From positions 1 through 44,360 of the IMG/VR virus record IMGVR_UViG_3300020215_000020: a stretch of DNA of 44,360 bases, one strand, 5' to 3'. The stretch is from a virus. Every line of letters starts with the position of its first letter. Position 1 is the stretch's first letter. The notes below the pieces were generated by a model. The model had not been told where the DNA came from. It did not search any database and was given only the letters and a program-made list of their open reading frames with translations. Positions 18,549-41,434 of this stretch are shown here, in pieces. The translations under genes and the position numbers were made by a program.

Positions 18549-19130
18549 TCAAGCCGTCGCGGGCGAAACCTGTGGACGACGACGCAGAGCTGCTCCGGCA
18601 AGCCCGAACCCGCCGATCATCAAGGCCCAGGTGGAGGGCTCAGGGATCGCGGCCGTTTGAGTGTACGTGCGGAAGGTGGCGTCGAACTGTGCAAGCTCGG
18701 TGTCTCCCGCGAAGTAGGTCCCGAACGCGTAGCTGTCAGAGAGGGTGCCCGCCACACCGGCGTAAGTAGCCCCGTCAAGGTCGATGGTCAGCCGATACGT
18801 CACACCGGTCGTGGCCATCACGGGCGTCCAGAACGCCTCGGCCCACTGCGGTTCGTTGTCAGCGAGCGTGACGCCGCCGGAGGCAAGCTGCGTCGAGCCG
18901 TCCCACAGGCCAATGATGAACGAGAGGTCGGTGCCGATGGTGTTGGCGAGGAAGAAGCCGCCGCCCGCGATGTTGCTTGCCGAGGTCTCAAAGGTTTGGC
19001 CGGCCGGAGCGCCGGAGAGCCCGGCTATCCCGGCGTCGTTTTCAAGCTGCGCTTGGTCAACGACAAGCGCGGCGTGCGCGGCGGTTGAAACACTAACCGC
19101 AGCGGCAGCCAGGAGAAGCGTCTTGAGCAT
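18549..19130 (-). CDS. Secreted PEPxxWA-CTERM sorting-domain protein
   Basis: 193 residues from ATG 19130, which follows AGGGGG. The N-terminus MLKTLLLAAAAVSVSTAAHA is a clear Sec signal peptide. The C-terminus has PEPSTWALMIGGFGLAGAA, a transmembrane helix, then RRRP: the PEPxxWA-CTERM variant recognised by exosortase-type enzymes in alphaproteobacteria. The middle is beta-rich (about residues 25-160), resembling a carbohydrate-binding-type lectin fold only in general character. Expected fate: export, processing by a host exosortase, surface or extracellular matrix location. No exosortase is in the window. It looks like a lysogenic-conversion cargo gene, divergent from an XRE regulator. Confidence 0.9.
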   Translation of the reverse strand: MLKTLLLAAAAVSVSTAAHAALVVDQAQLENDAGIAGLSGAPAGQTFETSASNIAGGGFFLANTIGTDLSFIIGLWDGSTQLASGGVTLADNEPQWAEAFWTPVMATTGVTYRLTIDLDGATYAGVAGTLSDSYAFGTYFAGDTELAQFDATFRTYTQTAAIPEPSTWALMIGGFGLAGAALRRRPQVSPATA

Positions 19131-25560: not shown

Positions 25561-26928
25561 CTAAGAGCGCACGCCCTTCCTTCTGAAGTAGAAGGTGGGG
25601 AAACCGAGTTTCTTCCCGTAATAAGCCGCCCACTGACCGGGCGTATGCGTCGCGTCCCACTTATAGGTGAGCGAATTGTTGCTCATGATGTGGGTCTTGC
25701 CGACGATGCCGGTGTGGCCGTTTGGAGCACCCTTTGAGCTCGTGCCGGTCGGGCTGATGATGATGTCGCCCGGCAAGGGCTCCGTCACCGCCATGAAGTC
25801 GGGGTGGGCCTTCAGAGCCTTGTAGAGAAGCGCGGTCGAGGCCCCGCCCCCGATCTGCCGGCCGAAGGCGAGCTTGTGGACCGCATTCACGGCCTCAGCG
25901 CAGCCGAGCTCGTTCTGCGTCTTCGCCATGTCGCGGCCAAGGCAGCCCTTGGCGACCTGGTAGAGATGCTCCCGGTTCGTGAGCCGCGGCGGCTCGGGAA
26001 CTGGTACTGGTACTGTACTAGGTACTGTTACTGGTTCCGGCGCAGGCAAGGGCTCCATCGGCACGTCGAACCGGGCTTCACGCGGCGTCGTGAAGAAGGG
26101 CACGAGCGCCTTGAGCGCCCGGAGCGCCTTCTGAAGCATGAGCACGAGATAGTTCTGCTCGAAGGGCGCAACGCCGGTCGGGTTCGGTCGCATGAAAAAG
26201 AGGATGGCGGCGTTGTAGTCGTACTCAGGGTCGAGCTTCTTCTTGAAGGGCTCGTACTGGTCGCTGATCTCCTCATCCGCCGCGATCATCACGAGGTGCG
26301 TGTCCCGCGCGCCGACAGGCTTCGTGTAGCGGGTGCCCGTCTTCTGCCACGCAAGAACGGAAGCGACGACGGTGCCGCGCTTCAGGGCGGCCTTGATCCG
26401 GCGGTTCTTCTCCTTGGGGCTGAAGTTGTTGATCGGCGGGATGACCCACTCGGGCTCGATCTCGTATTCCCGTAGGAACTGCTGGCCCTCGGCGACCACG
26501 TTCTCGTCAACGGGCGTGTAGTACTCCTCGCATCGATCGATCTCCGGGGACCACGGCATCCGCTCTTCGGCCACGACGCCGAACTGTGTCGCGATGAGCT
26601 CAGCGACCCGCCACGGCTCGTTGCCGACGCCGCAAACGGTCCCGCAGACGCAGCCGGCGTAGCGCTCCGAGAGGTTGTCGGGGATCTTGTAGCCCTTGAA
26701 TTTAGCGAGGGCGCGGATGGCCTTCAGGATGGCGTGGCAGACGCAGTTGAACGTGTCGAAGTCGCCGCGCTTTTGGTGCTCCGGGGCTCCAAGCCACTTC
26801 CACCAATCGCCCTTGGGATTGATGATCCCCGCGTCCGCCCCGAGCTTGGCGGTCGCCTTGCCGCTGCCCATGATCCAAGCATGGCGCTTCTGCGGTCGAA
26901 GGATGAGGCCGTAGTTTTTGCGTTCCAT
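25561..26928 (-). CDS. Two-domain cysteine-peptidase lysin
   Basis: 455 residues. An N-terminal papain-like domain has Cys62 in FDTFNCVCHAILKAI and a His at 211 in DTHLVMIAADEE. A Val/Pro linker of about 40 residues (290-325) follows. The C-terminal domain resembles CHAP/NlpC-type amidases: LGCAEAVNAV (C343), PGDIIISPTG, NGHTGIVG (H405). The C-terminal domain is the likely peptidoglycan hydrolase for lysis; the N-terminal domain may process proteins or also cut peptides. It sits between two holin-like genes. No signal peptide, so it needs a holin. Confidence 0.8.
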   Translation of the reverse strand: MERKNYGLILRPQKRHAWIMGSGKATAKLGADAGIINPKGDWWKWLGAPEHQKRGDFDTFNCVCHAILKAIRALAKFKGYKIPDNLSERYAGCVCGTVCGVGNEPWRVAELIATQFGVVAEERMPWSPEIDRCEEYYTPVDENVVAEGQQFLREYEIEPEWVIPPINNFSPKEKNRRIKAALKRGTVVASVLAWQKTGTRYTKPVGARDTHLVMIAADEEISDQYEPFKKKLDPEYDYNAAILFFMRPNPTGVAPFEQNYLVLMLQKALRALKALVPFFTTPREARFDVPMEPLPAPEPVTVPSTVPVPVPEPPRLTNREHLYQVAKGCLGRDMAKTQNELGCAEAVNAVHKLAFGRQIGGGASTALLYKALKAHPDFMAVTEPLPGDIIISPTGTSSKGAPNGHTGIVGKTHIMSNNSLTYKWDATHTPGQWAAYYGKKLGFPTFYFRRKGVRS

Positions 26929-26931
26929 ACG

Positions 26932-27183
26932 CTAGAGGGCAGCGACGATCAGCTGGATAAGCTCGGGCCTGCCGAGGACGATACCGAGCACGAGGATGCC
27001 GAGCGCGAGGAGCCCCTTCCAAATGCGTCCGGTCTCCTTCTCAAGCGCATCAACCCGACCGTTCGTCTTGGTCGTCTGGACCAAGATCGGCCCCGTGGCG
27101 TCGTCGATGTGTTTCTTAAGATCGGTGCTCTGCTGGTCGAGCATCCGTTCGATCTGTCTATTCGAGTAGCGTGGCTCGTCCAT
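26932..27183 (-). CDS. Membrane protein with coiled coil, 83 residues (holin/XhlA-like)
   Basis: An N-terminal soluble helix (about 1-50, with RVDALEKETGRI heptads) and a C-terminal transmembrane helix (LLALGILVLGIVLG). This layout matches small phage haemolysin/XhlA-type proteins that assist lysis. TAG stop, then three bases to the lysin ATG. Confidence 0.65.
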   Translation of the reverse strand: MDEPRYSNRQIERMLDQQSTDLKKHIDDATGPILVQTTKTNGRVDALEKETGRIWKGLLALGILVLGIVLGRPELIQLIVAAL

Positions 27184-27185
27184 AC

Positions 27186-28217
27186 TCAGTCGATGAGCCA
27201 GGTACCCCCCTGTTGAAAGAGCGTGCCTGCGGTCTGCTTGAAGTTGCCCTGGAACGAGAAGTAGGTGATGGCGATGACGCCTTGGCCGCCGCGCCCGCCG
27301 GTGCTGTTAGTGGGGTCGGCAGAGACGTAGCCCCCACCGCCCCCTCCCCCGCCGTAAAGACCGCCCGTACCCCCGTTACCGGGGCCGGGGTTCCCGCTGC
27401 CGCCACCTCCTCCTCCACAGGCTCCCACGCCGTCGGCAAAGGTGGTGTCACAGCCGCCGGTTCCTCCCGTTCCTGTGCCGGAGCTGCCGCCGCCCCCGCC
27501 CCCGCTCGTGCCGTTGCCGCCGTTGGTGTTGCCGGAGGTTCGCCCCACTCCCCCGCCGTTACTGAAATACCCGTGGCCGCCGTCACCGGGGACGCCTGCC
27601 GTTGTGACGGAGCGCCCCGGTGTAGACCCACCTCCTCCTCCCCCGCCGCCACCTGGCCCCGTGCGGTTTGAGACGCCGCTGTTGCCGTTCTTACCGGTAC
27701 CAAAGCGACCAGCTGATCCCCCTCCTCCCCCGCCGCCCTGGTTGGCGCTCGTGCCGCCGATGCCACCGTTGCCGCCGTCAAACTCGATAGTGCCGGTTGA
27801 CTGCGCGGTCTTGCCGCCCTGACCCGCTGTAGATAGAGACGCCGCCCGGCCGAACGCACAGGACAAGGAAGCGGAGGTAGACGCGGTGCCGTTGAAGTAG
27901 GTCTCGTTGGCTATTGTCCCCGAGGTGGTCGTTGAGGTCGAACCGATGGCGTAGGTGACAGACGCACCGGGGGTGAGCGCGAGGTTGAAGATCGCAGCAT
28001 ACGCCCCGCCCCCTCCCCCGGCTCCGCTACGGACTTCACCAAAGCCTGGCGCACCGATGCCTCCCGCGCCGATGCACTCGATCATGGCGGTTGTGGCGTC
28101 GTAGTCGTCAGGGACTGTCCAGGTCTGGTTCCCCTCACCCGGAGCGGCAGAGAGGATGATCGTCTTCGCCTCGGCAAGCGCCGGGAACAGGAGGAGGAAG
28201 AGGAGCAGGTAGCGCAT
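27186..28217 (-). CDS. Glycine-rich fibre protein with signal peptide
   Basis: 343 residues. MRYLLLFLLLFPALAEA is a typical Sec signal peptide with an AEA cleavage site. The domain around 25-100 (WTVPDDYDATTAMIECIGAGG) is the beta-rich start of phage glycine-rich tail-tip proteins, followed by long poly-Gly stretches that probably form a polyglycine-helix bundle, as in receptor-binding tips. A short C-terminal strand segment ends GGTWLID. It shares its central region type with 34940-36508. The signal peptide is odd for a virion protein. Confidence 0.75.
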   Translation of the reverse strand: MRYLLLFLLLFPALAEAKTIILSAAPGEGNQTWTVPDDYDATTAMIECIGAGGIGAPGFGEVRSGAGGGGGAYAAIFNLALTPGASVTYAIGSTSTTTSGTIANETYFNGTASTSASLSCAFGRAASLSTAGQGGKTAQSTGTIEFDGGNGGIGGTSANQGGGGGGGSAGRFGTGKNGNSGVSNRTGPGGGGGGGGGSTPGRSVTTAGVPGDGGHGYFSNGGGVGRTSGNTNGGNGTSGGGGGGSSGTGTGGTGGCDTTFADGVGACGGGGGGSGNPGPGNGGTGGLYGGGGGGGGYVSADPTNSTGGRGGQGVIAITYFSFQGNFKQTAGTLFQQGGTWLID

Positions 28218-28219
28218 AC

Positions 28220-30457
28220 CTAGCGACAGCGGTTGTTCTCAACCACCATTGTTGTGCCGACGAAGTAGAAGCTAATCGACCCGCCGGTAGTGTTCTTGGT
28301 GTTGTGGCAGACCTTTGAGTTCGAGGTGTACTGATCCCCCCACTCGACGGTCGTTGTTCCGGTTGAGTTGTCGCTCACCGCCCCTGTGATCGTGGTGGTT
28401 CCCCCGAGGTAAGTGGCGGCATTATGAACGTAGAGGCCGAAGTGCCCGCCCGTGGCTACGGTCGTACTCGCTTGGCCGTCAATGTAGAGCGTTGAAGTAG
28501 TGGAGACTGAACCCGCCCCGTTGGTCACAAGAAGTCCACGCACACCGAGGTTGACCATCAAGGGATGGGTTCCCGATCCTGCCTCAGAGACCGGGGCGTG
28601 GCCCATGAAGACCGCGGTGTAGTTGGTGTTCGCTGCTGGGGCTGCCCCCGTGGCTCCGTGGAAGAAGGTGCGGATGTTGTTCGTGCTTGAGCTCGGGAAG
28701 AGAAGCGCTCCGGAGGTCTGTGCGGTTGAGCCTGACCCCGACACGACGGCGAAGTTCGCGCTCGCGGCCGTCGCGTTTGTTTGCAGGCCGCTCGAATTCA
28801 CCGTCAGGCGGTTGAGGGTGATCGTACCGCTTGAGACGGTGCCGATCTGAATAGTGCCCGATCCCTTCGCGTCGATGGTGAGGTTGTCGGAGATGTTGCC
28901 GGACTGGACGGAGAGGGCGAGGCCGCTCCCGGCGGTGTTGGTGGTGATCCCGAGCCCGTTCCCGAAGTTGAGGTTGTTCACGAGAAGGGCGCGGGTGGTG
29001 GTGCCCGATGCTCCCACGGCAAACGCCTCGGAGAGCGTGCTCTCGATCAGGGTGTTGCCCTGGATCATGGCGGTGTGGCTGGAGGAGGTTGAGCCGACGC
29101 CAAACTTGATTGCAGCTGAGGGGCTGACGGAGAGCACCTGCCCTGACGAAGATCCGATCGCGAAGTAGTCGGCGGTGCCCGTCGGGGCGTCTACCGAGAG
29201 TTCCGCGTAGGGCGAGGTCGAGCCGATACCGACCTGGCTCTGGGTGTCTATGGTGATGGTCGAGGTACCCACCGCATCGTTCGCCCCTTGGAAGTAGGCG
29301 ACCTGACCGGTTGAGCCTGTGAGCGACCCGCCCCCCGTAGGCCAGGTGGTTCGGCAGGTGTCTCCTGTGAGACAGACCGTGGTTGCGGAGAAGGCGGTCG
29401 TCGAGGCGTTCGTGACGGTGAGGCGGGCATCGGTGTTGTTGAACGTAAAGCCTGCGTTGCCGCCGGAGAGGAGGGCTGGGGTAGCGTTGGTCGAGGTCCA
29501 GAACGGAACGCGGGTAGACGTTTCAGCCGATGACGTTCCGACGTTGCCCGTACCCCCGCCCCCGCCTGACGCGTCCGCGCCGTCACAGAGGTCTGCGGAG
29601 CCGGTGATGGTCGTACAGAAGTCCGTCCACTCGTTCCCCGTCACGCCGTTGAACGTGAGGAGGCCGGTGATGTCCTGGTTGGTCGAGGTCGCGTGGGTGG
29701 TGCTTGCTCGCGTGACCTGGAAAGAGCTCGGGAAGATCACGTGGGAGGGAAGCGAGAGCGTCCACGTCCGATCTGCGGACAAGTCCTGTGATCCGGCTGA
29801 GGAGCTGATCTGATTGGCCGTGCCGGCGACAGTGAGGGCGCGTGTGGCTGCAACCTTGTTGTTGAAGGTCGTCCAGTCTGCTGCCGCAAGACACCCGGCC
29901 TGTGAACCGGAAGCCGTCTGACAGCCGAGGGAACCGCCCGATCCAACCTGCGTGAAACTGCCGGTAAGAGGCGAGGAGGCGGTGAGCGTTGAGGTCGCTG
30001 CCCCGTACACCCCTGACCCGCCGTTCGACACGAGGAGGTTGGAGGAGGAAGGCTGCGAGGTGGTCGCGAGGCCCGTGTAGGTGATCGCGCCACTTGAGCC
30101 GAGAATACGGATGGTTGGAAGGGTGAACGGGCCTGAAACCGTCAGGGTCGAGGTAGCAGCGCCAAACGCGGTCCCGCCGTTTGCTGAGGAGTAGACGAGT
30201 ACGTTTCCAGCTGAGACCGGACTTGAGGTAGCAAGGCCGGTGCCTCCCCCGCCTGAGCCGCAGGTCCCAAACTCGTATGTGAATGGGTCGTCGTCGAGCA
30301 CCTTGAGGCAGAGGCCAACGTCGTCCCCCGTAGCAGAACCTTTGCCGGTGCCGCCGGAATGAGGCTGGGTAACGCGAAGCTGCGCCTCCGCGGTGGCCGC
30401 GAAGAAGAGGCTAGCGATGACAACGAGGATGAAGATGAGGGGGAGGAGACGCTTCAT
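28220..30457 (-). CDS. Long Ser/Thr-rich fibre-like protein with signal peptide
   Basis: 745 residues. MKRLLPLIFILVVIASLFFAATAEA is a Sec signal peptide. The rest is repetitive Ser/Thr/Gly-rich beta sequence (for example ATSTLTVSGPF, LTVTNASTTAFSATT), with a few Cys pairs, ending in a small C-terminal domain (FYFVGTTMVVENNRC). It resembles beta-solenoid or trimeric fibre proteins; no enzyme motif is seen. It lies in the tail-fibre region, TAG then two bases to the next gene. Confidence 0.7.
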   Translation of the reverse strand: MKRLLPLIFILVVIASLFFAATAEAQLRVTQPHSGGTGKGSATGDDVGLCLKVLDDDPFTYEFGTCGSGGGGTGLATSSPVSAGNVLVYSSANGGTAFGAATSTLTVSGPFTLPTIRILGSSGAITYTGLATTSQPSSSNLLVSNGGSGVYGAATSTLTASSPLTGSFTQVGSGGSLGCQTASGSQAGCLAAADWTTFNNKVAATRALTVAGTANQISSSAGSQDLSADRTWTLSLPSHVIFPSSFQVTRASTTHATSTNQDITGLLTFNGVTGNEWTDFCTTITGSADLCDGADASGGGGGTGNVGTSSAETSTRVPFWTSTNATPALLSGGNAGFTFNNTDARLTVTNASTTAFSATTVCLTGDTCRTTWPTGGGSLTGSTGQVAYFQGANDAVGTSTITIDTQSQVGIGSTSPYAELSVDAPTGTADYFAIGSSSGQVLSVSPSAAIKFGVGSTSSSHTAMIQGNTLIESTLSEAFAVGASGTTTRALLVNNLNFGNGLGITTNTAGSGLALSVQSGNISDNLTIDAKGSGTIQIGTVSSGTITLNRLTVNSSGLQTNATAASANFAVVSGSGSTAQTSGALLFPSSSTNNIRTFFHGATGAAPAANTNYTAVFMGHAPVSEAGSGTHPLMVNLGVRGLLVTNGAGSVSTTSTLYIDGQASTTVATGGHFGLYVHNAATYLGGTTTITGAVSDNSTGTTTVEWGDQYTSNSKVCHNTKNTTGGSISFYFVGTTMVVENNRCR

Positions 30458-30460
30458 AGG

Positions 30461-31315
30461 TCAGGAGCGGATGTACGTTATGTCGATCTTGGTGCTGTCG
30501 TTCGGCGTGAAGAGCAGCGTGATCGTCTTCTGGTCACTGCCGACCGTGTAGGCGGTGCCGTAGGCGAGCGCGGAGCCCTCGTAGTAGAGCCACGCTGCCC
30601 GGCCGCCGGCCGCGATCTTGTAAGTCGTGCTGATCGTCGTCGTGGCGCTACCGACGCTCTTCGCCTCGTGCTGCGGCATGCCCATCCCACCGCCACGCTT
30701 GGTGCGCGTGCTGCCGCCGGAGAGCTGCTCCACGAGCTCGCGGAGCCCGTTGATGTCTGAAACCTTGAGCCCCGCCTCTCCAAGGGCGCGGAGCTTCGCG
30801 AGGATCTCGGTGCCGGTGTCTGGGCTGCCGTTCTTGCCCGGCTTACCTGGCTTTCCGGGCTTGCCGGGCTCCACCTTCGGGATCAGCGGGCGGATAAGCG
30901 CGATCAGCTTCGCATCGGAGGGCGTTTTGCCGTCTTTGACCTTGGGAATGAGCGGCTTGATGAGGTTGAGGAGCTTCTCGTCGCTCGGTGCCGGGCCTTC
31001 GTCGCCCTTTTCGCCTGGCTCGCCGGTAATCTCGGCTACCCGAGCCTCAATTTCCTCGCGGAGGATGCCCTCAAAGCGCTCCTTGATGCCTGGAAGCTCG
31101 TCCATGAGCTCGGTGAGGCGAGCTTCGAGTGCGGCGTCGAGGACCGCCTTGCCCTCGGCGACCTGGGCACGCACCTCCGCGAGCACCACCTCCGCAATTC
31201 GACCGGCGACGCCCTGAAGTTCCCCCAACGCCTGCGCCTGCGCGAGGGCAGGATCGCGTTTTGAGAGTTCGTAGAGCTTACGCTTGGAGACTTTGCGAAG
31301 GATCGGCTGCGTCAT
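30461..31315 (-). CDS. Collagen-like fibre protein
   Basis: 284 residues from ATG 31315. A helical N-terminus (about 1-85) likely attaches to the virion. Two collagen-like G-x-y stretches follow (GEPGEKGDEG and PGKPGKPGKPGKNG), separated by two copies of a KLLNLIKPLIPKV / KLIALIRPLIPKV helix. The C-terminal part is a beta-rich, trimerisation-like head (residues about 190-284). Typical of phage side or tail fibres. Confidence 0.78.
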   Translation of the reverse strand: MTQPILRKVSKRKLYELSKRDPALAQAQALGELQGVAGRIAEVVLAEVRAQVAEGKAVLDAALEARLTELMDELPGIKERFEGILREEIEARVAEITGEPGEKGDEGPAPSDEKLLNLIKPLIPKVKDGKTPSDAKLIALIRPLIPKVEPGKPGKPGKPGKNGSPDTGTEILAKLRALGEAGLKVSDINGLRELVEQLSGGSTRTKRGGGMGMPQHEAKSVGSATTTISTTYKIAAGGRAAWLYYEGSALAYGTAYTVGSDQKTITLLFTPNDSTKIDITYIRS

Positions 31316-31462
31316 ATAGAAAGTATGCAATAAGCCACACGTCGATTGGCGCAATTTCCCCTATTCACCCCTCGCTCTTTGACGCTCATGTCTCCGTGTG
31401 GTTAGCTTTTAGTATGGTAACAATCTTGCTGGTTCTCCTTGGGCTTTGGATTGCCGGCGTCA

Positions 31463-32932
31463 CTATTGGTTGGATGCGCTCGTAAGATCGGGGATCACAT
31501 CTCCGACCACGGCCGCACCGTTCTGGCCGATGAGCTCAACGCCCCTCCCCGCCGTGTAGACGGTGAGCCCGCCCACCGTGGCGATCGGCGTCACCACCAT
31601 GTCTTTCACGGCATTCAGCCAGCCGCCCGCGCCGCCCTTGAACTTCGCCCCCGTCATCGCCTTCTGGCCGAGCTCGGCGATGCCCTTGAGGTTGCCGTAG
31701 TCGATGTAGGCGAGGCGGACGTCGTCTCCGAGTGCGGAGGTGATGTCCTGCCGCGCAAGATCGGAGAGGACTTTGCTGACCTGGCGCACCGCGCCGGCAA
31801 TCGGCTGGCCCTTATATGCCTTCTCGGGGACAAACTGCGCCCAACCCTCTTTGAGCTTCTGAAGCTGCACCATGTCCACGTCGCCCATGCCGGCGTAGTC
31901 GTCCTTGATAGCTTCAAGGCCCTCCAAGAGCGCCTTCTGGCGAGTGAGGTCAGGGTTGCGCTGGCGAATAACCTCCTCAGCTTCACTGAAGAGCGCCGGC
32001 ACGCTCGTCTTCACGCCTGACGCCTGGAGGCGCGGGCCGATCAGATCCTTCCAGAGCTTCTGCGACGCCTGCTTCGCCTGGACGCCAAGCATGCCCTCGG
32101 TACCCACGAGCTTCTTCGCGAATGCGGTCTCTTCGGTCGTGCGCGGGGTCTTCGGGTTGCCAGCGAGCACCGCGCCGACACGCTTCCAGAACGGCGTATT
32201 TGCTCGGTAATTCTGCATGATCTGAGCCTCCCGTGCTGAGAGCGGGACGGCCATCTTGTGAATGGTCTTGCCTGCCTCCTTGGTGACGTTGCCAAGCGGG
32301 GCGGTGACGGCCGTAAGCACGCCGCCCGCCGCGGCACCGATGCCGGCATCCTGCACCACCTGGTCGGTCGGCTTGCCTTCCGCAACGGCTCGGGTTCCCG
32401 CGGCTGCACCACCGATGCCCGAAGCTGCGGCGACCTTCGGTATGATCTTGGCAGGAAGGGATGCCCCCATGCTTGCGGCGGTGATGGCTGCGTTGGCCCC
32501 ATCCGCGGCGACCTTCACAGCCTCCTGGCCCGATCCTGGCCCCCTCTGCGCGTCCTCCTGGTACTGCGGGAAGATGTCCGGCCCATCGGTTACGGCGTCG
32601 CGTGCGAGCGCGCCCAAGCCGCCCACGGCCGTTCCGACCGCTTCTCCGATTTTGCCGCCCGGTAGCTTCTCAATGAAATCCGAAACGGGGTTGTCGACGA
32701 TGGCATCGACCACCTTGCGGCCGATGGACCGCTCGTCCGGCCCGCTCTCTGGAACCGTAGGCCCTGCCGCGCTGCGCCCCGGATTGCGGAACTCGCCGGC
32801 CTTTAAGCGGTCCGTCAGTTTGCCTGTGCTCGGGGTCCCGGTGGCGCTCGGGCGAGACGCTCCTGAAGCGCCCCTCGGGGTGATGTTGTAGCGCTGGCGG
32901 TACTCTTCGATCTGCTGGGGTGTAAGCGGCAT
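31463..32932 (-). CDS. Ejection/internal virion protein-like
   Basis: 489 residues. A disordered Ser/Gly/Pro N-terminus, then several Gly/Ala-rich amphipathic or membrane-inserting helices (for example AAAGGVLTAVTAPLG), a long soluble helical region, and a Gly-rich C-terminal helix. These features fit P22/T7-type ejection proteins that cross the envelope. It is adjacent to the transglycosylase virion protein. No enzymatic motif. Confidence 0.6.
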   Translation of the reverse strand: MPLTPQQIEEYRQRYNITPRGASGASRPSATGTPSTGKLTDRLKAGEFRNPGRSAAGPTVPESGPDERSIGRKVVDAIVDNPVSDFIEKLPGGKIGEAVGTAVGGLGALARDAVTDGPDIFPQYQEDAQRGPGSGQEAVKVAADGANAAITAASMGASLPAKIIPKVAAASGIGGAAAGTRAVAEGKPTDQVVQDAGIGAAAGGVLTAVTAPLGNVTKEAGKTIHKMAVPLSAREAQIMQNYRANTPFWKRVGAVLAGNPKTPRTTEETAFAKKLVGTEGMLGVQAKQASQKLWKDLIGPRLQASGVKTSVPALFSEAEEVIRQRNPDLTRQKALLEGLEAIKDDYAGMGDVDMVQLQKLKEGWAQFVPEKAYKGQPIAGAVRQVSKVLSDLARQDITSALGDDVRLAYIDYGNLKGIAELGQKAMTGAKFKGGAGGWLNAVKDMVVTPIATVGGLTVYTAGRGVELIGQNGAAVVGDVIPDLTSASNQ

Positions 32933-32933
32933 A

Positions 32934-34934
32934 CTAGGAAGTGCGGAGGTGGCTCATAACCTTCTTGGCGTAGGCAACGCTGTCGTATTTGACGCCCTGC
33001 TTGTTCACGCCCGCGATGCGCCGCGGCTCCTCAGAGCCTCCAAGCGAGGTGTTCCAAATGAGCGCCACCTCCTCGGGCGTGTTGCCCTGGCGAAGGAGCC
33101 GGTCGATCTTCGCGACCGCAACCTTTCGCTCGTTCTCAGGCGTCATCGGAAGAACCTTGCCGGTGACTTCACGTGAAATCGCAGCCCACGTGGGCGGCAG
33201 GAACTGGAACGCTCCGTTCTCTCCGCTCGCGCCCTTAGTGCCTGGCTTGTTGCCGGTCTCGGCCATTGCGATTGCAGTGGCGAGGCTCTCGGCGCTCATA
33301 GACACGGTATCGCCGTCGAGGATATCGAGCATGTCCTGCGGCGTCAGGTTCGGGTTCTCGGCCTCAATCTGGTTGATCTTGGCCGCGGTCTCCGGGTCGC
33401 TGTCGTAGAGCTCCTGAAGCTTCTCCTCGGGGGTGCGCATGTCGTCGAGGTCAAGCGGCTCAATGACGAGGTCTGCCGGGATGCCAAGGCGCTCGGCCCG
33501 GCTCGCATACATGCGATTGCGCTGCTCCTGCTGCGCCTTCTCGGCTTCGTAGATGAGGCGCGCACGTTCCACGAAGTCGGCACGGAGCTTCGCGTTCTCG
33601 TCGCCGGTGGCACCGAGCTTACCGCCGTTCACGATGGCGTTGTATTGATTGATGATCCGGTCAGGGACGCTGCCGGCGTTCTGCGCGGTCGCAAACTCGC
33701 CCTCTCGCACCACCGAAGTTGGGTCGAGCATCTTCATGTAAGCGAAGATGAGGGAGAGGTCGCCAGCGGGTGTAGGGTTGCGAGCGGCTGCGTCGATGCG
33801 GGTCTTTTGCGCCTTCACCGTGAAGAAGTCCTTCGAGCGGGTGTTGTAGTCGTCTCGAAGCGAGTTGGAGGCGTTCAACTGCGACGGGGTGAGGTCTTCA
33901 ATCCCCGACGTTTGCGCCATCGTGCCGTACGCCTCGCCCTTCGTGGTTCCGAACGGCACGCCAAGCTTGCGCGCCTCCTCAACGGAGAGGAGCTCGGTAC
34001 TCTCGTCGCCCTCGGCGGTGAGGTTCTCGATGGTGTCGGCCACCTCCTTTGAGCTGAGGCTGAGACCCTTCGCCTTCAGGCGCTTCATGATGTCGTTCGG
34101 ATTGACGACGCCGGCATCAAGGAGCGCGCCGACGCCTGCATCAATCCGGGTCTGCCGGGAGAGCTTCTGCGCCTCCTCGATGTTCTCGCGGGCCGTCTTC
34201 ATGGCCTCGTCGAGGTACTCGCGGGCCGCCTTGGAGGCGTTGAGGGCGTTCTGAAGGTTGCCGCGGCGTAGCTCAGCGTTCGCCTCCGCGATCTTCGTGG
34301 AGTACTTGCCGTCAAGCTCGGTGAGCTTCTCGATGCCGTAGGTGCGCTGCGCCTCCATCTGCGTAGCTGCAAGCGTGGGCGCATAGCGGGAGATGCCGGT
34401 GCGGATGGCTACCTGGCCGAGCGACGCTTCGGTCGACTTGTTCGTCTCGAGCTGTGCTTTCCGGGCCGTCGCCCATGCACTCTGAAGGGAGCCGATGAGA
34501 GCGCTGGTCTCGTCGGTGTTGGCAAGGGAGAGCTGTCGGTAGCTCTTCTGCTCCTGCTCGAACTGCTTGTCGGCAAGCTTTTCAAGGCGGGCGAGCCTGC
34601 CCTCCTCGCTCGTCTCCTCGTCATCAAAGATGTCGAGGTCATCAAGCGGGTCGCTCTCGGTCGTGCTCTCCATGCGGTTCTGATCGGCAACGGCCGCCGC
34701 CGTCATGCCCTGACTGATCGCGGGGGTGATTGTCGTGTCGACGACGTTCTGCCCCTGCTTTGAGGAGAGGACGGAGACCGGCCGTTGATTGGCTGGTCGA
34801 GCCGTACCCAGGAGCTTTGGGGCAGCAATGCCACCCGCGGAGACTTCCTCCTCGTACCGCTTAGAGCCGATCTTGAAGTTGCGCCCTCCGATCGAGGCGA
34901 CGGTCGGTTTGTAGGTGGGGGTCTTCGTAGGCAT
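32934..34934 (-). CDS. Virion-associated lytic transglycosylase
   Basis: 666 residues. The C-terminal 110 residues form an SLT-type domain: AIAMAETGNKPGTKGASGENGAFQFLPPTW with the catalytic Glu in AETG, then ALIWNTSLGGSEEPRRI. The long N-terminal helical region (about 100-540) with coiled coils would be the internal core or ejection part. This resembles T7 gp16-type proteins that open peptidoglycan during infection. Its TAG stop is one base before the ATG of the ejection-like gene. Confidence 0.85.
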   Translation of the reverse strand: MPTKTPTYKPTVASIGGRNFKIGSKRYEEEVSAGGIAAPKLLGTARPANQRPVSVLSSKQGQNVVDTTITPAISQGMTAAAVADQNRMESTTESDPLDDLDIFDDEETSEEGRLARLEKLADKQFEQEQKSYRQLSLANTDETSALIGSLQSAWATARKAQLETNKSTEASLGQVAIRTGISRYAPTLAATQMEAQRTYGIEKLTELDGKYSTKIAEANAELRRGNLQNALNASKAAREYLDEAMKTARENIEEAQKLSRQTRIDAGVGALLDAGVVNPNDIMKRLKAKGLSLSSKEVADTIENLTAEGDESTELLSVEEARKLGVPFGTTKGEAYGTMAQTSGIEDLTPSQLNASNSLRDDYNTRSKDFFTVKAQKTRIDAAARNPTPAGDLSLIFAYMKMLDPTSVVREGEFATAQNAGSVPDRIINQYNAIVNGGKLGATGDENAKLRADFVERARLIYEAEKAQQEQRNRMYASRAERLGIPADLVIEPLDLDDMRTPEEKLQELYDSDPETAAKINQIEAENPNLTPQDMLDILDGDTVSMSAESLATAIAMAETGNKPGTKGASGENGAFQFLPPTWAAISREVTGKVLPMTPENERKVAVAKIDRLLRQGNTPEEVALIWNTSLGGSEEPRRIAGVNKQGVKYDSVAYAKKVMSHLRTS

Positions 34935-34939
34935 GGTAG

Positions 34940-36508
34940 CTAGTTGAAGATCTCAGTCAGGATGATGAGACCGGGCGCAGCCGCACCGCTCGCGGTCGTG
35001 ACACCGCCACCGCTACCAGCGCCGTAACCGGTAGCTGCTCGGCCGGCCAGGTTGCCTGAAGCACCGTTTGGTGCGGTGACGACACCCTGACCGCCTCTGC
35101 CATAGACGCTATCGCCACCGTCGCCGCCATTGGCGAAGTCGGGGGTCGGGCCGGTGTCGGTTCCGCCTGGTGTTCCGTCGAAGTTTTCGATCTCCACCAT
35201 CCTCGACACCGTGCCGGAACAGTCACCACCAGCGCCTTGAGTACCGCCGCTCGCCGCAGCACCGGCACCGGCGACGACATGCCCGCCTACGGAGGACTGC
35301 GCGCCAGCTGCACCGACGGTCATGGTTACGGTAGAGGCGAGGAGATTGGACGGGATGGCGGCCTTGCAGTACGCGCCGCCGCCCCCTCCGCCTCCGCCCT
35401 GGTTGTCTGCCGCGCCTGCGCCGCCTCCGCCGACAACTTCGACGATGAGCTGCTTGAGGCCGGCCGGCTTTGCCCAGGTGAAGGTTGCAGTGAAGGAGGA
35501 GGTAGAGGCTGTGGCGAACGTCGAGGTGGCGATGCCGTTAGTCGTCACGGTGCCGGTGAACGTCGACGTAGCGAAGCTGTTCGTGCCGCTGAAGGTGTTG
35601 TCGTTGCCGAGACCCACACCGAAGGCGTGCGGATTGAAGTAGAGCTCGGTTGCGCTTTTGACCTTTCCGAGCCCGACGGTCGTGGTGGCGGTTGAGGTCG
35701 CGCCCGCCGTGGAGGAGAGGAAGAGGTTCACGCCCGCGGACATGCCGACCTGGGTGGTGTCGAGGCCAAGCGTGAGGACGCCGTTCGTGATGGAGTTGCC
35801 GGCGGTACCTGGTCCTTGAGCGATGCCGAGGATGGCGTTCGTGGTGCTCTCAGGAACGTCGGTGTCGGCCTTCCACCAACGCGCGTCTGCGCGCTTGAAG
35901 TAGAGGATCGTGCCGGTGGCTATGGTCTCGCCCGCGGTACCGGCGACGATGATCTGATCGTAGGAAAGCGTGCCCCCGTTCTGAAGGCCATCAACGTAGG
36001 TCTTGGTCGCCGCGTTCGCGCCTGCGGTGGGGGTCGGGAAGCTCCACGAGCCGCTGATCGTCTCGTCGTTGTCCTTGAAGGCGGCCTGATTGAAGAGCTG
36101 CGGTGGGTCGCTGAAGATGACGGTCGAGCCGCCTGCGTGGCTGTACTGGAGGGTCGAACTCGCGGTGTAGGGCGTGATGGGCGAGAGGCCGCGGGTGCAG
36201 CCGGAGAGGATCGCGGTCGAGCCGTTGCTCTGCGTGACCGTCGTGCAGGAGACAAACTCCTGCTTGTTCCGGTTGCCCGGCTCAATCGTCAGATAGAACG
36301 TGTCGGAGAAGTCCTCGTCGAGAAGCTCCTGCCCGGTCTGCGGCAGAGTGAGCGAGCTGAGCGTGATCGACGTTGCCGACGATGAGATGCCGGAGCCGGC
36401 GAGGAAGTACGGAAAGCCACCAATGGGCTTCACGGTATCCGCGGCAAAGGCACTGAGCGGCAGAAGAAGTGCGAGCGTAGCTGCGAGTAATCGAGAGCGT
36501 GTCTTCAT
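34940..36508 (-). CDS. Tail fibre with signal peptide and glycine-rich tip
   Basis: 522 residues. MKTRSRLLAATLALLLPLSAFA is a Sec signal peptide (AFA cleavage site). Then a domain with paired Cys (EFVSCTTV, ILSGCTRG), a coiled or beta linker with TKTYVDGLQNGG typical of tail-fibre hinge regions, Thr/Ser-rich repeats, and a C-terminal glycine-rich tip (LIVEVVGGGGAGA). The tip is paralogous in type to that at 27186-28217. A TATAAT box (36520-36525, minus) lies 11 bases before the ATG. Confidence 0.78.
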   Translation of the reverse strand: MKTRSRLLAATLALLLPLSAFAADTVKPIGGFPYFLAGSGISSSATSITLSSLTLPQTGQELLDEDFSDTFYLTIEPGNRNKQEFVSCTTVTQSNGSTAILSGCTRGLSPITPYTASSTLQYSHAGGSTVIFSDPPQLFNQAAFKDNDETISGSWSFPTPTAGANAATKTYVDGLQNGGTLSYDQIIVAGTAGETIATGTILYFKRADARWWKADTDVPESTTNAILGIAQGPGTAGNSITNGVLTLGLDTTQVGMSAGVNLFLSSTAGATSTATTTVGLGKVKSATELYFNPHAFGVGLGNDNTFSGTNSFATSTFTGTVTTNGIATSTFATASTSSFTATFTWAKPAGLKQLIVEVVGGGGAGAADNQGGGGGGGGAYCKAAIPSNLLASTVTMTVGAAGAQSSVGGHVVAGAGAAASGGTQGAGGDCSGTVSRMVEIENFDGTPGGTDTGPTPDFANGGDGGDSVYGRGGQGVVTAPNGASGNLAGRAATGYGAGSGGGVTTASGAAAPGLIILTEIFN

Positions 36509-36527
36509 ACATTCATAATTATACGTC

Positions 36528-38393
36528 CTACTTTCTAATAGCGGTGTCCCGACGTGGGGATGCCTTCATGTTCATGCCGCGTGCGAGCACGGCAAAGTAA
36601 CCGTCCACTTGATCCATCGTGTAGACCTCTTGGATTTCGTGGAAGTCCTCCTTCGGGAGCTCGAAGACGACGCGGTATTTGAGCGTCGTTTCCGGCTCCG
36701 CCGAGGAGCCGCCCAAGGGCTGCGTGCCGAGGCTGCTCTGCCCAAGCGAGGAGAGGCTCTCGTCCTGGTACGTGATGTCCTGGTCGTCCCCGTCGATGGT
36801 GCGGGTGATGGTCTGGCTCTCGCCACCGAAGTCGTAGAGGAGCGAGAGCTCCACGTCCGTGTTCGTCGTGATCTGGCCCTCGGTGTAGTACTCGTCGATG
36901 TTCTTCAGGTTCGCCCGGTCGTCACCCGTGCGGTAGGCGAAGGCGGCGACGGCGTTGATCGGGAGCTTTTCGCTCATCTCCATGCCGTCGAACATGCCGT
37001 CTGAGGTGCCCTCGAACAGGTGGTAAGTCTCGGCGACGCTGTTTGAGTGCGCGTGCAGTCCGCCCGCGATGATCACGAGGGGTCCGCACGGCAGGCTCGT
37101 TTGTGGAGGCTGCCAGAAGCGGCGAACGCCCTTGTCTCCCTCATCCGGATCGTCGGCCGCGTCTTCGAGGATTTCGAGGATGTAGAGGCGGGTGTTGACC
37201 GGGCAGGCATAGTAGAGCGCGTTCTTGAAGAGGAGGCCGGTGACGTCGGTGAAGTCCTCGGCATCAAAGTCGGGCTGGATCGGGCTTGAGTAGGTGCGCG
37301 GGTCGAGCCCTTCAAGCTCGTCCGGGTCGCTGAAGACGCGGAGCGCTGGCTCGTACGAGATGTAGGCGAGGCTGTCCCCTAGATCGACGACGCTCTCATG
37401 GTTGATGCAGCCAAGGTTCTCGCCCGTCTGAAGACGCTTGATCTTCATCGTCTCGGAGAGGGTGCTGCCGACTGTAATCTCGGCGGTCTCCACCTTGTAG
37501 ACGTGGTTCCTGCCGGCGAAGAGCACGAGCTTGCTGCCAACGCTCCCGGCCGCGTTCATGGGCGCATCGAGGGTGAGGAGCGCCCCCTCCCCAGCGAGCC
37601 GCGGCGTCGAGAAGGAGTAGTCCGCAATGTCGTCGTTCTGCGAAACGTAGACCTCCTCGTCGTCATCTGAGCCAAGAACAACCTGGTTCTCGTGGACATA
37701 GATGACGTGGTTGGTGCGCCCTGCAGCTGGTTCCGAGGATCTCGTGACCGGCTTCTGGATGAGGATGTCGCCGGCCTGGAGGCCCGTGGTGTCCGCGATC
37801 CCCGTGAGGGTCGTGGTGCTCTCGCCGCCCGTGTAGGTGTATTCGGTGCCGGTGCGTGCGCATATGAAGGTCTTGTTACGGGTCGTGTAAAAGCGGTTCT
37901 CTGCAAACGTGGTGGTGCCCGACTTCGTGACGGTCGTGCCGCTCGGGACGCTTGAGACGACGGCGATCGCGCCGTTCCACTCGTAGACATTGGCCGAGCC
38001 AATGACCCACAAGAGAAGGTCGAGGTTCTCGGTCGCGTCCCACCACGTGGCGAAGCGCATTTTGATCGTGGTCGACCACGAGGCGAGGATGCGGGTCCAT
38101 GCCTCAATGTCGGTGCCATCAACGGTGCCGAGATAGACCTCAAGCTCGTCGTCGTACTGGCGCACGGGGAGCTCGTCGCCGGTCGAGGTGTTCCACGTGA
38201 CACCCGCGCGAACCGGGGTGGTCGCGCTGTTGGCCGCGCCAAGGCGGGTATATCCCTGGCGGCTCTTCACCTTCCTCTGCCGATCCACGAGGACGTTCTT
38301 CGAGCCAGTGGTGAGGTAGCGCTCGTCGGTGTTCGTCTCGTCAGGGGCGGTGACGTAGCCGAGCGTCTCTTCGATGGTGAAGTACTTCTCCAT
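36528..38393 (-). CDS. Tail nozzle/tubular-type protein
   Basis: 621 residues from ATG 38393, two bases after the preceding TAG. The N-terminus contains DRQRKVKSRQGYTRLG, as in podoviral tail-tube B/P22 gp10-type proteins which begin with a strand that decorates the genome-ejection channel, followed by repeated beta segments consistent with a beta-propeller. It follows an adaptor-like gene, the same order as in podoviruses. The assignment is by pattern, length and position. Confidence 0.65.
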   Translation of the reverse strand: MEKYFTIEETLGYVTAPDETNTDERYLTTGSKNVLVDRQRKVKSRQGYTRLGAANSATTPVRAGVTWNTSTGDELPVRQYDDELEVYLGTVDGTDIEAWTRILASWSTTIKMRFATWWDATENLDLLLWVIGSANVYEWNGAIAVVSSVPSGTTVTKSGTTTFAENRFYTTRNKTFICARTGTEYTYTGGESTTTLTGIADTTGLQAGDILIQKPVTRSSEPAAGRTNHVIYVHENQVVLGSDDDEEVYVSQNDDIADYSFSTPRLAGEGALLTLDAPMNAAGSVGSKLVLFAGRNHVYKVETAEITVGSTLSETMKIKRLQTGENLGCINHESVVDLGDSLAYISYEPALRVFSDPDELEGLDPRTYSSPIQPDFDAEDFTDVTGLLFKNALYYACPVNTRLYILEILEDAADDPDEGDKGVRRFWQPPQTSLPCGPLVIIAGGLHAHSNSVAETYHLFEGTSDGMFDGMEMSEKLPINAVAAFAYRTGDDRANLKNIDEYYTEGQITTNTDVELSLLYDFGGESQTITRTIDGDDQDITYQDESLSSLGQSSLGTQPLGGSSAEPETTLKYRVVFELPKEDFHEIQEVYTMDQVDGYFAVLARGMNMKASPRRDTAIRK

Positions 38394-38395
38394 GC

Positions 38396-39553
38396 CTAGG
38401 TGCGGAAGCGCGGGAGCATTCCGTAGCTGGTGCGGGCCTTCTTCACCTGGGTCGGGTGCATGCCCTGGTAGGCCGGGTAGAGCGTCTTGAGCTCGTTCTT
38501 CGCAAACTCGACGTCGAAGGCGCTGTCCGTGCCCTCCATCTGCTGTGCCATCGCGACGAGGCACTCGTAGAGGAAGAGGTTCACGCCATCGTTGTCGAGA
38601 ACCACGGTGTCGTCGTCGCTCGTGGGGCGCGAGAGCCAGGTCCCCGACGAATTCTTGAAGAGGTACTTGCTGTAGTACTTCAGGTCGAAGGGGTAGCCGA
38701 CCGCGAAGAGGATATTATCGACGCGGATGTCTGAGATGGCAGTCGTGCCCGTGATTGTCAGCCGGAAACTATCGATGGTCGAGGGCGCGACGGTGCCCGT
38801 CTCGGTCGCGCCGGCCCACGCAAAGCGAAGGATGTTCCACCCAACGCGAAATGCCGTGCCGTCGGCCTGCGCCGTGACCGCTGAAGGGGTCCAGTAGTTG
38901 GCGGTGAGGTCGTTTCCGAAGCGAATGCTGAAGGAGGTGAGGCCCGTCGTCGATCCGAGGTAGACCGGGATCACAATCGAGGCGATTTCGTCCTCATCCG
39001 TGAGGTCCACCGCCGTCATGCCCGTGTTTTCGATGCCGCCACCGGTCGCGGTGAGGTCAAAGCGAACAGATCCGCCGCCGGAGTAGCGGTAGATCGTGTC
39101 TGTCTCGACGTTTGAGGCCCCCGTAACGGCGCTCCACGTGCCGTTACTTGTATGGCTGTCCATCGAATGCAGCGTTTTCGGGCTGCGGACCTTCCAGTTG
39201 ATGCGAAGGAGCTTCGAGCCCCCGTCCGCCTCGATCGAGATGATGCGGTCGTCGAGGTTCTTGCGGCGATCAAACGCCTCTGCAAGCGACCGGAAGGCCA
39301 TATCGTGGCTGTCCCGGCCCGCCTGGGGGTAGAGGTCGATCATCTCGCCGAAATCGGACGGGAGCGAGTAGTTGTAGAGCTTGTCGTGAACCGTCTGAGA
39401 GAGCGCGGCGAGGCGCACCGCCTCCACCGGCTTCACCTTCATAAGCAGATTGTTGGCAGCACGCTCAAACAGGGCTTCGATGTTGCGAACCTTGTTGAGC
39501 GTTCCTCCGTGGCCCATCCCCGTGAGGTGCTCTTTGACCTGGGTGATGGTCAT
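38396..39553 (-). CDS. Head-tail adaptor-like protein
   Basis: 385 residues. The N-terminal helical part (TLNKVRNIEALFERAANNLLMKV, LYNYSLPSDFGEMIDLYPQ) and C-terminal helices around ECLVAMAQQMEG resemble podoviral adaptor (gp4/gp11-type) proteins. An inserted beta domain (about 120-290) looks like a carbohydrate-binding-like or Ig-like module, unusual for an adaptor. It precedes the nozzle-like gene. Confidence 0.6.
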   Translation of the reverse strand: MTITQVKEHLTGMGHGGTLNKVRNIEALFERAANNLLMKVKPVEAVRLAALSQTVHDKLYNYSLPSDFGEMIDLYPQAGRDSHDMAFRSLAEAFDRRKNLDDRIISIEADGGSKLLRINWKVRSPKTLHSMDSHTSNGTWSAVTGASNVETDTIYRYSGGGSVRFDLTATGGGIENTGMTAVDLTDEDEIASIVIPVYLGSTTGLTSFSIRFGNDLTANYWTPSAVTAQADGTAFRVGWNILRFAWAGATETGTVAPSTIDSFRLTITGTTAISDIRVDNILFAVGYPFDLKYYSKYLFKNSSGTWLSRPTSDDDTVVLDNDGVNLFLYECLVAMAQQMEGTDSAFDVEFAKNELKTLYPAYQGMHPTQVKKARTSYGMLPRFRT

Positions 39554-39565
39554 GGTGAGTGTGGG

Positions 39566-40003
39566 CTACTGGTAGACGCACTCAGTGACGTAGACGGTCG
39601 TTGAGCCAACGTCGGTGATGCCGGTGATTTCGCCCGTGTAGACGTTCGCGGTCTCCTTGCCGGTCTCAAGGGTCGGGGTCGACGTTGAGAGGTTGAGGCC
39701 AGCATTCAGGACAGCAGCAGCTCCTTCATCGGTCGAGAGGAACACAGTCGAGGTGGCGCTGCCGCCGGCGTCACGGGCCTGCGTGAGGCGCGCCCACGCG
39801 CGATTTGAGTTCGCGGCAAGTAGGGTGCGGGAGACCTGGTTGCCGACGAGTGCGAACGAGCTCGTCGTTGTGATGCACGATGGCTGGCTTCGGCCGCCGC
39901 CTGCGCCCGCGACCGGGTTCGGGGAGAGCAGCACAAGCGCACAGAGCGCCCCAAGCGCGAGCCCGATGGCTGCGTAGAAGGCGAGGTACTTTTTGATAGT
40001 CAT
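39566..40003 (-). CDS. Signal-anchored small protein, 145 residues
   Basis: Start at 40003 removes an N-terminal extension lacking support. KKYLAFYAAIGLALGALCALVLL is a signal peptide or anchor, followed by a beta-rich Ser/Thr domain with two cysteines (CITTTS near the start, CVYQ at the end) that could form a disulfide outside the cytoplasm. It lies in the head-tail region but is predicted to be exported. Confidence 0.65.
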   Translation of the reverse strand: MTIKKYLAFYAAIGLALGALCALVLLSPNPVAGAGGGRSQPSCITTTSSFALVGNQVSRTLLAANSNRAWARLTQARDAGGSATSTVFLSTDEGAAAVLNAGLNLSTSTPTLETGKETANVYTGEITGITDVGSTTVYVTECVYQ

Positions 40004-40077
40004 GGCGATGGTTATGGCGGGCTTGTTAGTGTGCCCATCCCCGCCCCCCATTCAGACAAAGGGGCGGGGTGGGAACG

Positions 40078-40440
40078 CTAGATCGGGCAAGACCCGTAGC
40101 GAGCCGACACGAGGAAGTGCGAGGTGCCTCCCTGCGTGGTCGTGGTGCCGACGTGCGGCGTGAACGTGTAGACGACCGGGGTCGCCGTTGACGTGGCATG
40201 CGACTGAATGCAGCCAACCTCAGCGGAAGACGTGGCCGTATTCGAGGTGTCGAGCTTCAGGTCGTCGCCTCGAAGCTCACCGTTCGCGCGCGGCGAGTTG
40301 GTGCTTGCGCTCACTCCGTTCGGGAAGCGCGTACCTTCTGCGCCGAGCGAGAAGTCAAAGGCTGATGCAAGTTGGACAAGGCCAACGGCTGCGAGAATTA
40401 CCAGCGCAACCACTCCTGCCCACTGCTGAAGAGAGTTCAT
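40078..40440 (-). CDS. Signal-anchored small protein, 120 residues
   Basis: N-terminal hydrophobic helix WAGVVALVILAAVGLVQLASA, then a Ser/Thr-rich domain with FPNGVSASTNSP, a central Cys and a C-terminal Cys (GSCPI). The repeat-free beta-rich body resembles the neighbouring 145-residue protein in layout, so the two may be distant paralogues. Follows the major capsid gene. Confidence 0.65.
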   Translation of the reverse strand: MNSLQQWAGVVALVILAAVGLVQLASAFDFSLGAEGTRFPNGVSASTNSPRANGELRGDDLKLDTSNTATSSAEVGCIQSHATSTATPVVYTFTPHVGTTTTQGGTSHFLVSARYGSCPI

Positions 40441-40465: not shown

Positions 40466-41434
40466 TTACGCGGTGCCGTTGCTGCCCACATAGCCGAACC
40501 AACTTCCGATGAAGTGGCTCTCCATGTACTTGGCACGCTCGATGAACGTGTCGTTTGCGGTAGCCTCAGGCGGGATGAGCCGCGTCGAGAGGTCCACGAG
40601 GACACGACGCGATGCCTGCGCATTGCGGGACACGACGTGGTACGACGTGTTCGCGTTGCTGTTGCTGTTGTAGGTCGAGCCGAGGAAGATCGACGACTTG
40701 ATCGAGACCTGTCCGTAGATGGTCTTGAAGACGTTGATCTGGTTCTCACCTGCGAACGGCACGAGGTCGCTATCGAGGGTCTCGTGCGCCGTCTTCAAGA
40801 GAATGAACGGGGTGAGGATGCCCTCGAAGACCTGGCCGCCGGCCTCGCCGTCCTGCGCCTTCTGATTGGCAAGCGACTGCACGACGGTCCAAAGACCATC
40901 GGCTGAGAGCGCTGGGGTCTCAAGGTTGTCGATGTTGACGCCCTTGAGGGTCGTGTGGCTGTTCGATGCCCACGCATCGCCGTCAGGCGTGGTGGAAATC
41001 GCACCGTCAAACGCGTCACCGTAGGTGTCCTGAATGGTGGACTTGTCCTGGGTGAGGCGCGCGCGATCTGCGATCTGCTCGCCGATCATCTGACGCTTGT
41101 TAATGCCGGCCTGTTCCGTCTTGAACGCCTCGAATGAAACAGGGATCTGCTTCACCCACTTGCGCTGACGAACAGACTTCGTGTTGCCGATAAACGTGTC
41201 ATCGGACGGGAGGTCTTCCTGCTCGCCGACCTCATTGAAGGCACCGACGTTGCTGTCTTCATCCCAGATGTAGACCATTTCGTCAGCCTTGGACTGGCGG
41301 AAGAAGAACCCGTCACGAGCCGAGAGGTTGTCGGGCTGGTCGTCGCGCATGAATTTCTCATACACGACACCATTGATCGCCTTCTGGAATGCATCCGGCG
41401 ATAGCCCAGTTGTGTGACCACCTGTAGGGTTCAT
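40466..41434 (-). CDS. Major capsid protein
   Basis: 322 residues, consistent with an HK97-fold shell protein. Visible: SVRQRKWVKQIPVSFEAFK, NKRQMIGEQIADRARLTQDKS, DAWASNSHTTLKG and NQINVFKTIYGQVSIKSS. The last two patterns occur in Mu-type and related head proteins. It lies between a decoration-like gene and the tail genes, after a scaffold-like gene. No Shine-Dalgarno; the ATG follows AGCAATCAGTT. Confidence 0.85.
   Translation of the reverse strand: MNPTGGHTTGLSPDAFQKAINGVVYEKFMRDDQPDNLSARDGFFFRQSKADEMVYIWDEDSNVGAFNEVGEQEDLPSDDTFIGNTKSVRQRKWVKQIPVSFEAFKTEQAGINKRQMIGEQIADRARLTQDKSTIQDTYGDAFDGAISTTPDGDAWASNSHTTLKGVNIDNLETPALSADGLWTVVQSLANQKAQDGEAGGQVFEGILTPFILLKTAHETLDSDLVPFAGENQINVFKTIYGQVSIKSSIFLGSTYNSNSNANTSYHVVSRNAQASRRVLVDLSTRLIPPEATANDTFIERAKYMESHFIGSWFGYVGSNGTA

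Follow-up and report, generated by a model that had tools for sequence, protein, structure and literature searches.

Five genes in the structural block of a podovirus-like phage encode proteins that open with Sec-type leaders, and these leaders are kept at the same positions in its relatives. Our results suggest that the five proteins are probably virion fibres and decorations which are exported by Sec, fold outside the cytoplasm and are added to the particle at or after lysis. For tailed phages, assembly is regarded as an entirely cytoplasmic process. What is new here is that ordinary virion domains are placed on an unexpected export route, and that this is kept across a whole clade of uncultured short-tailed phages.

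Sec-type leaders in the structural block

The window, i.e. the whole stretch of DNA analysed, is a 44,360-base IMG/VR phage record and looks complete, since it carries a 127-base terminal direct repeat. Its structural block lies on the minus strand in the order capsid, S1, S2, tail A, tail B and F. Behind F, on the same strand, come a transglycosylase-bearing gene, two more leaderless genes, genes 28220 and 27186, a small holin-like gene and an endolysin-like gene (Table 1). The positions 27186, 28220, 34940 (F), 39566 (S2) and 40078 (S1), by which the leadered genes had been designated, are 3′ ends, all five genes being on the minus strand; translation starts at 28217, 30457, 36508, 40003 or 40051, and 40440, respectively. 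For S2 the start at 40003 (MTIKKYL...) is the better one because the relatives begin with the hydrophobic segment. Whole-protein tblastn of F, the capsid protein (MCP) and tail B against 50,697 phage records gave no match.

Table 1. Features of the window around the leadered genes
Feature	Position	Strand	Basis
Inferred major capsid protein (MCP), leaderless control	40466..41434	-	position and conservation; no family match
S1, 120 aa, first gene after capsid gene: signal anchor, SLGAEGTRFPNG, variable C-terminal part	40078..40440	-	
S1 leader, residues 1-27	40360..40440	-	sequence
S1 [LFV]G[AGS] motif, LGA, residues 32-34	40339..40347	-	
S2, 145 aa: signal anchor and beta-sandwich; Cys near both ends (C43, C142)	39566..40003	-	
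S2 leader, residues 1-28	39920..40003	-	helix 3-25 in model
Tail protein A (TA), leaderless control	38396..39553	-	weak tail PHROG
Tail protein B (TB), leaderless control	36528..38399	-	start set by relatives
F, 522 aa fibre: leader, beta domain 30-140, gpD-like 181-295, Gly-rich tip 327-522	34940..36508	-	
F leader, residues 1-23, AFA cleavage site	36440..36508	-	
F motif IGG, residues 29-31, at place of relatives' LG[AGS]	36416..36424	-	
Leaderless virion-type protein with SLT transglycosylase domain	32934..34934	-	
Leaderless collagen-like fibre candidate	30461..31315	-	weak
Leadered fibre-like protein, 745 aa, 10 Cys	28220..30457	-	
Leader of gene 28220, residues 1-25, AEA-Q	30383..30457	-	
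Leadered Gly-rich fibre-like protein, 343 aa, 4 Cys	27186..28217	-	
Leader of gene 27186, residues 1-17, AEA-K	28167..28217	-	
Small protein, one C-terminal hydrophobic segment, holin-like position	26932..27183	-	
Endolysin-like protein with CHAP-like C-terminal domain	25561..26928	-	

Leaders were called with a rule-based predictor of n-, h- and c-regions. As the original prediction had claimed, all five genes open with Sec-type leaders; three of these are of the classical cleavable kind, and the other two are signal anchors. The cleavable leaders are those of gene 27186 (MRYLLLFLLLFPALAEA, cleaved before K), gene 28220 (MKRLLPLIFILVVIASLFFAATAEA, before Q) and F (MKTRSRLLAATLALLLPLSAFA, before A), each with a clear AxA-type signal peptidase I site. 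This site is weak or absent in the two anchors, S2 and S1, the latter with a possible ASA-F site. A short positive n-region and an uncharged hydrophobic h-region are found throughout, except that the n-region of the window S1 has no K or R. Applied to T7, lambda, P22, LUZ24 and phiKMV, the same rule called only 4 of 70 genes for virion proteins or their assembly, none of them a named fibre, tailspike, spike or decoration gene, while the control, lambda lom, was called as leadered.

Gene 28220 carries behind its leader an N-terminal module, GGTGxGSATAGDVGxCLKV, common to relatives. In those relatives which were read further, leadered long fibre-like genes lie downstream of the block, several with this module.

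A sixth leadered protein is encoded outside the structural block (18549-19130, minus strand). It combines a signal peptide with a PEPxxWA-CTERM sorting signal (NCBIfam E 7.5e-14) and its gene is among the few with a Shine-Dalgarno site, which suggests that it was recently acquired from a diderm host possessing an exosortase.

Conservation in relatives

Scans with the capsid protein gave more than 80 related IMG/VR loci, and the leader counts refer to the 65 non-redundant ones. Their G+C content spans 32-62% (about 32-47% for the loci read in detail, 62% for the window), and almost without exception their genes follow the order capsid-S1-S2-tail A-tail B-F. At the syntenic positions a leader is present in 55/55 S1, 36/40 S2 and 29/30 F, compared with 0/65 MCP, 0/52 TA and 1/39 TB among the neighbours and 87/661 of the other ORFs. 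The homologues do keep their signal peptides, and relatives lacking one, which would have told against the original prediction, are absent for S1 and nearly so for F. In the four loci whose S2 gene is leaderless, the slot is taken by a different small protein, which did not match the leadered S2 when profiles were compared; in view of this lack of detectable homology, the replacement is no proof of a shared role.

Given this conservation relative to neighbouring genes, the five leaders are not there by chance. It could still be argued that they are prediction noise or start-codon errors, the calls coming from a home-made rule and Shine-Dalgarno sites being too rare to confirm the starts, but the near-zero rate in neighbouring genes makes this hardly credible. 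Moreover, the codons at the LG motif described below are mostly not start codons, so that no common internal start could take the place of the leader.

Cysteines and other marks of export

The original prediction also noted Cys pairs suited to the periplasm. The numbers of Cys after the leader are 4, 10, 4, 2 and 2 in genes 27186, 28220, 34940, 39566 and 40078, all even. Of the S1, S2 and F proteins that are complete and contain Cys, 102 have an even count outside the leader and none an odd one, whereas the leaderless MCP, TA and TB of the same genomes show 39 even and 72 odd counts (of 111). The p-value of this contrast, 1.6e-28, overstates independence since the sequences are related. In the F core the Cys pair is all-or-none (23 CC, 6 FV or FA, 0 single). 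These even counts in leadered proteins point to disulfides and to real export.

Positive residues are asymmetrically distributed: K/R density is 0.17-0.28 before the hydrophobic segment and 0.07 after it, i.e. 2-4 times denser before. In three F homologues a Pfam LysM domain stands directly behind the leader, where the others have a transmembrane segment and a linker. Another segment (LWEYG...ER...YDQN), similar between loci and with no LysM, occupies the place behind the leader in the F of L028, L042, L062 and L074; it gave no Pfam match in the three that were scanned (L028, L042 and L074).

On the strength of the conserved leaders, the K/R asymmetry, the even Cys counts and the LysM behind the leader, export of the leadered proteins is very likely. 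Alternatively, the hydrophobic N-termini could be no export signals at all, the proteins assembling in the cytoplasm and the segments entering the membrane of the next cell at infection or acting as hydrophobic assembly plugs. T7 gp14, an internal virion protein, is also hydrophobic at its N-terminus by our rule, and many leaders have no clear signal-peptidase site. However, positive charge on the N-terminal side only, even Cys, AxA sites and LysM are marks of exported proteins and would be unexpected in cytoplasmic assembly, which leaves this alternative improbable.

F is built of virion domains

F was modelled with AlphaFold from an alignment of 24 F sequences, which yielded domains fit for use. 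By VIA-align of the model, residues 327-522 match the cyanophage Pam3 fibre (7ypx_A, Z 14.6, 31% identity); this Gly-rich fibre-tip fold also matches PF21722 just under the cut-off. Residues 181-295 adopt a gpD-like fold (Z 10.4 to HFTV1, 8.9 to the Adjutor and Pam3 decoration proteins), and residues 30-140 weakly match baseplate or tail domains. With domains matching the Pam3 fibre and gpD-like decoration proteins, F at least is thus built of virion parts, a decoration domain and a fibre tip; the gpD-like domain may bind the capsid. These folds are shared with the Pam3 fibre (7ypx) and with gpD-like proteins of HFTV1, Adjutor, T1 and lambda. F has a Sec leader ahead of these domains and Cys pairs ahead of and inside them; of the proteins named, lambda D was checked for a leader and has none.

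S2 is modelled as an N-terminal helix and a beta-sandwich. Its closest predicted viral structures are small tailed-phage proteins, many from uncultured phages, while solved structures match weakly. Among these, the cement protein of Helicobacter phage KHP40 (7dou) and the PM2 spike P1 (2vve) resemble it (Foldseek E 0.012; VIA Z 8.1), a similarity within the chance range for beta-sandwiches and with no sequence relation.

Just before the F start (36509-36530 in the window), TATAAT or TA[AT]AAT is found in 19/30 loci, as would be expected of a separate promoter for F, giving a transcript with a very short leader or none.

A common motif behind the leaders

S1, S2 and F are three unrelated families and yet share a short motif, in which L, or more rarely F or V, is followed by G and then by A, G or S, located between the hydrophobic segment and the body of the protein, 1 to about 60 residues away. 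Within 40 residues after the anchor, [LVIFM]G[AGS] occurs in 51/56 S1, 21/36 S2 and 16/29 F, whereas 18-25% of windows of that size in the rest of these proteins contain it. S2 proteins lacking the motif have an AxA site in 8/10 cases, those with the motif in 7/26 (p=0.007). The F of L043 (15572-17476) is the only one without a hydrophobic segment, and its LGA is kept. This protein starts with MINFFKKIISFFKGEKELGAS, apparently an amphipathic peptide ahead of the conserved LGA.

An internal (dual) start at the motif is rejected on account of the codons there, which, as noted above, mostly cannot serve as starts, and LG[AGS] is unlikely to be an ordinary signal-peptidase site: linkers reach at least 57 residues and the first position is often taken by F. 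From its placement, [LFV]G[AGS] is possibly a release or docking site. In one relative the counterpart of the endolysin-like gene carries Peptidase_C1, which makes papain-like cleavage at LG[AGS] a lead only; in G006 an M23 peptidase stands at the place of that gene.

Proposed route to the virion

Computation shows that the leaders exist and are conserved, that Cys numbers are even, that the motif is present, that F has virion-type folds and that synteny is kept; from these results we infer export, disulfides, location in the virion, time of joining and the role of the motif. The five genes would encode peripheral proteins, fibres and decorations, of a podovirus-like virion. Made with Sec leaders, these proteins would cross the inner membrane and fold there with disulfide bonds. 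Some may be freed by signal peptidase at AxA sites. In others the leader may serve as a lasting membrane tether, or the LysM directly behind it may hold the protein close to the cell wall, as in some relatives. Particles filled with DNA in the cytoplasm would gain these proteins when the cell lyses or later, and those still tethered would perhaps join after cleavage or docking at [LFV]G[AGS]. Transmembrane-anchored forms would need a hypothetical release step, which speaks against this route.

The original prediction had left two alternatives, display on the infected cell or lysogen, or fibres picked up by the virion outside the cytoplasm. We favour pickup, based on the virion domains of F, the synteny of the structural operon and the leadered Cellulophaga proteins annotated by MS/MS; with support from domains, synteny and another phage group, a virion destination seems the best reading. 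Lysogeny finds no support: 84,980 bacterial and archaeal genomes, scanned with one profile for the capsid protein and one for the core of F, contained no match.

Display on the infected cell remains the main rival, though a rather unlikely one. Leadered proteins displayed on the cell or released from it, outside the virion, could mask receptors, block re-adsorption or superinfection, or alter cell contacts. Many S1 and some S2 and F have permanent anchors with no obvious cleavage site, F homologues can be anchored by LysM, and lambda lom is a precedent for phage-exported surface proteins. The virion could also be served by a leaderless fibre candidate (30461-31315), so that the leadered proteins need not be the sole fibres. 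This candidate cytoplasm-assembled fibre combines coiled-coil and collagen-like parts with a small C-terminal domain and has similar genes in relatives. Display would, however, leave unexplained why F is made of decoration and fibre domains, why almost all relatives have these genes placed between those for capsid and tail, and why a conserved motif, suggestive of a partner or a protease, follows a variable linker. It also fits poorly with the virion annotation of leadered fibre-operon proteins in Cellulophaga phages phi10:1 and phi19:1.

A more specific and somewhat doubtful proposal is that a large clade of tailed phages finishes its virions outside the cytoplasm. Fibres, and decorations encoded next to the capsid gene, would be exported by Sec, disulfide-bonded and tethered to the envelope, then released or captured at the common [LFV]G[AGS], a site serving three unrelated families and possibly cut by a papain-like enzyme of the phage. 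If this clade, and separately the Cellulophaga phages, export fibres and decorations first, tailed-phage assembly would include an extracytoplasmic step. Receptor-binding proteins could then profit from disulfides and from folding in the periplasm, and the Sec and oxidative-folding machineries would count among the host factors of such phages.

Host and translation signals

The terminase points to Bacteroidota phages and the PEPxxWA-CTERM gene to a diderm host. A Patescibacteria host was raised only by the S/T-rich style of the fibres, and no test supports it. Shine-Dalgarno sites precede 0-9% of the S1, S2, F, MCP and TA starts, against 21% of random ATGs (tail B, 21%), and regions upstream of the clade's starts are A-rich, which together suggest a host not reliant on Shine-Dalgarno. 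The phage also encodes a divergent GroEL (4263-5984, minus strand), found as well in relatives (L091, L093).

Comparison with known systems

Tracing the window terminase to Bacteroidota phages led us to Cellulophaga phage phi10:1, whose terminase is a distant relative (35%). Its gp091-gp094 open with classical Sec leaders, and their annotation lists them as structural on the basis of experimental MS/MS; the same holds for gp101-gp104 of phi19:1, which makes eight leadered proteins annotated as virion proteins. By this annotation, leadered proteins have already been found in tailed-phage virions, although co-purified periplasmic proteins cannot be excluded among those listed; the leadered and MS-listed phi19:1 gp104 has an odd number of Cys, 11. 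Our literature search found no paper on leadered virion proteins of tailed phages.

The window and these phages share Sec leaders on consecutive genes of the fibre region. In the regions read of phi10:1 and phi19:1, on the other hand, the leaders are cleavable and restricted to distal fibre-region genes, with none beside the capsid gene, and their capsid and tail genes show no relation to those of the window by tblastn. The trait varies between phages, since the homologous fibre of phi17:2 is leaderless and the structural genes of phiST have almost no leaders. With their cultured hosts, Cellulophaga phages make the question testable now.

Lambda lom, like the window proteins, is phage-encoded with a Sec leader. 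Yet lom is a single protein of the host surface, encoded apart from the morphogenesis genes, whereas the leaders of the window are found on virion folds inside the structural operon.
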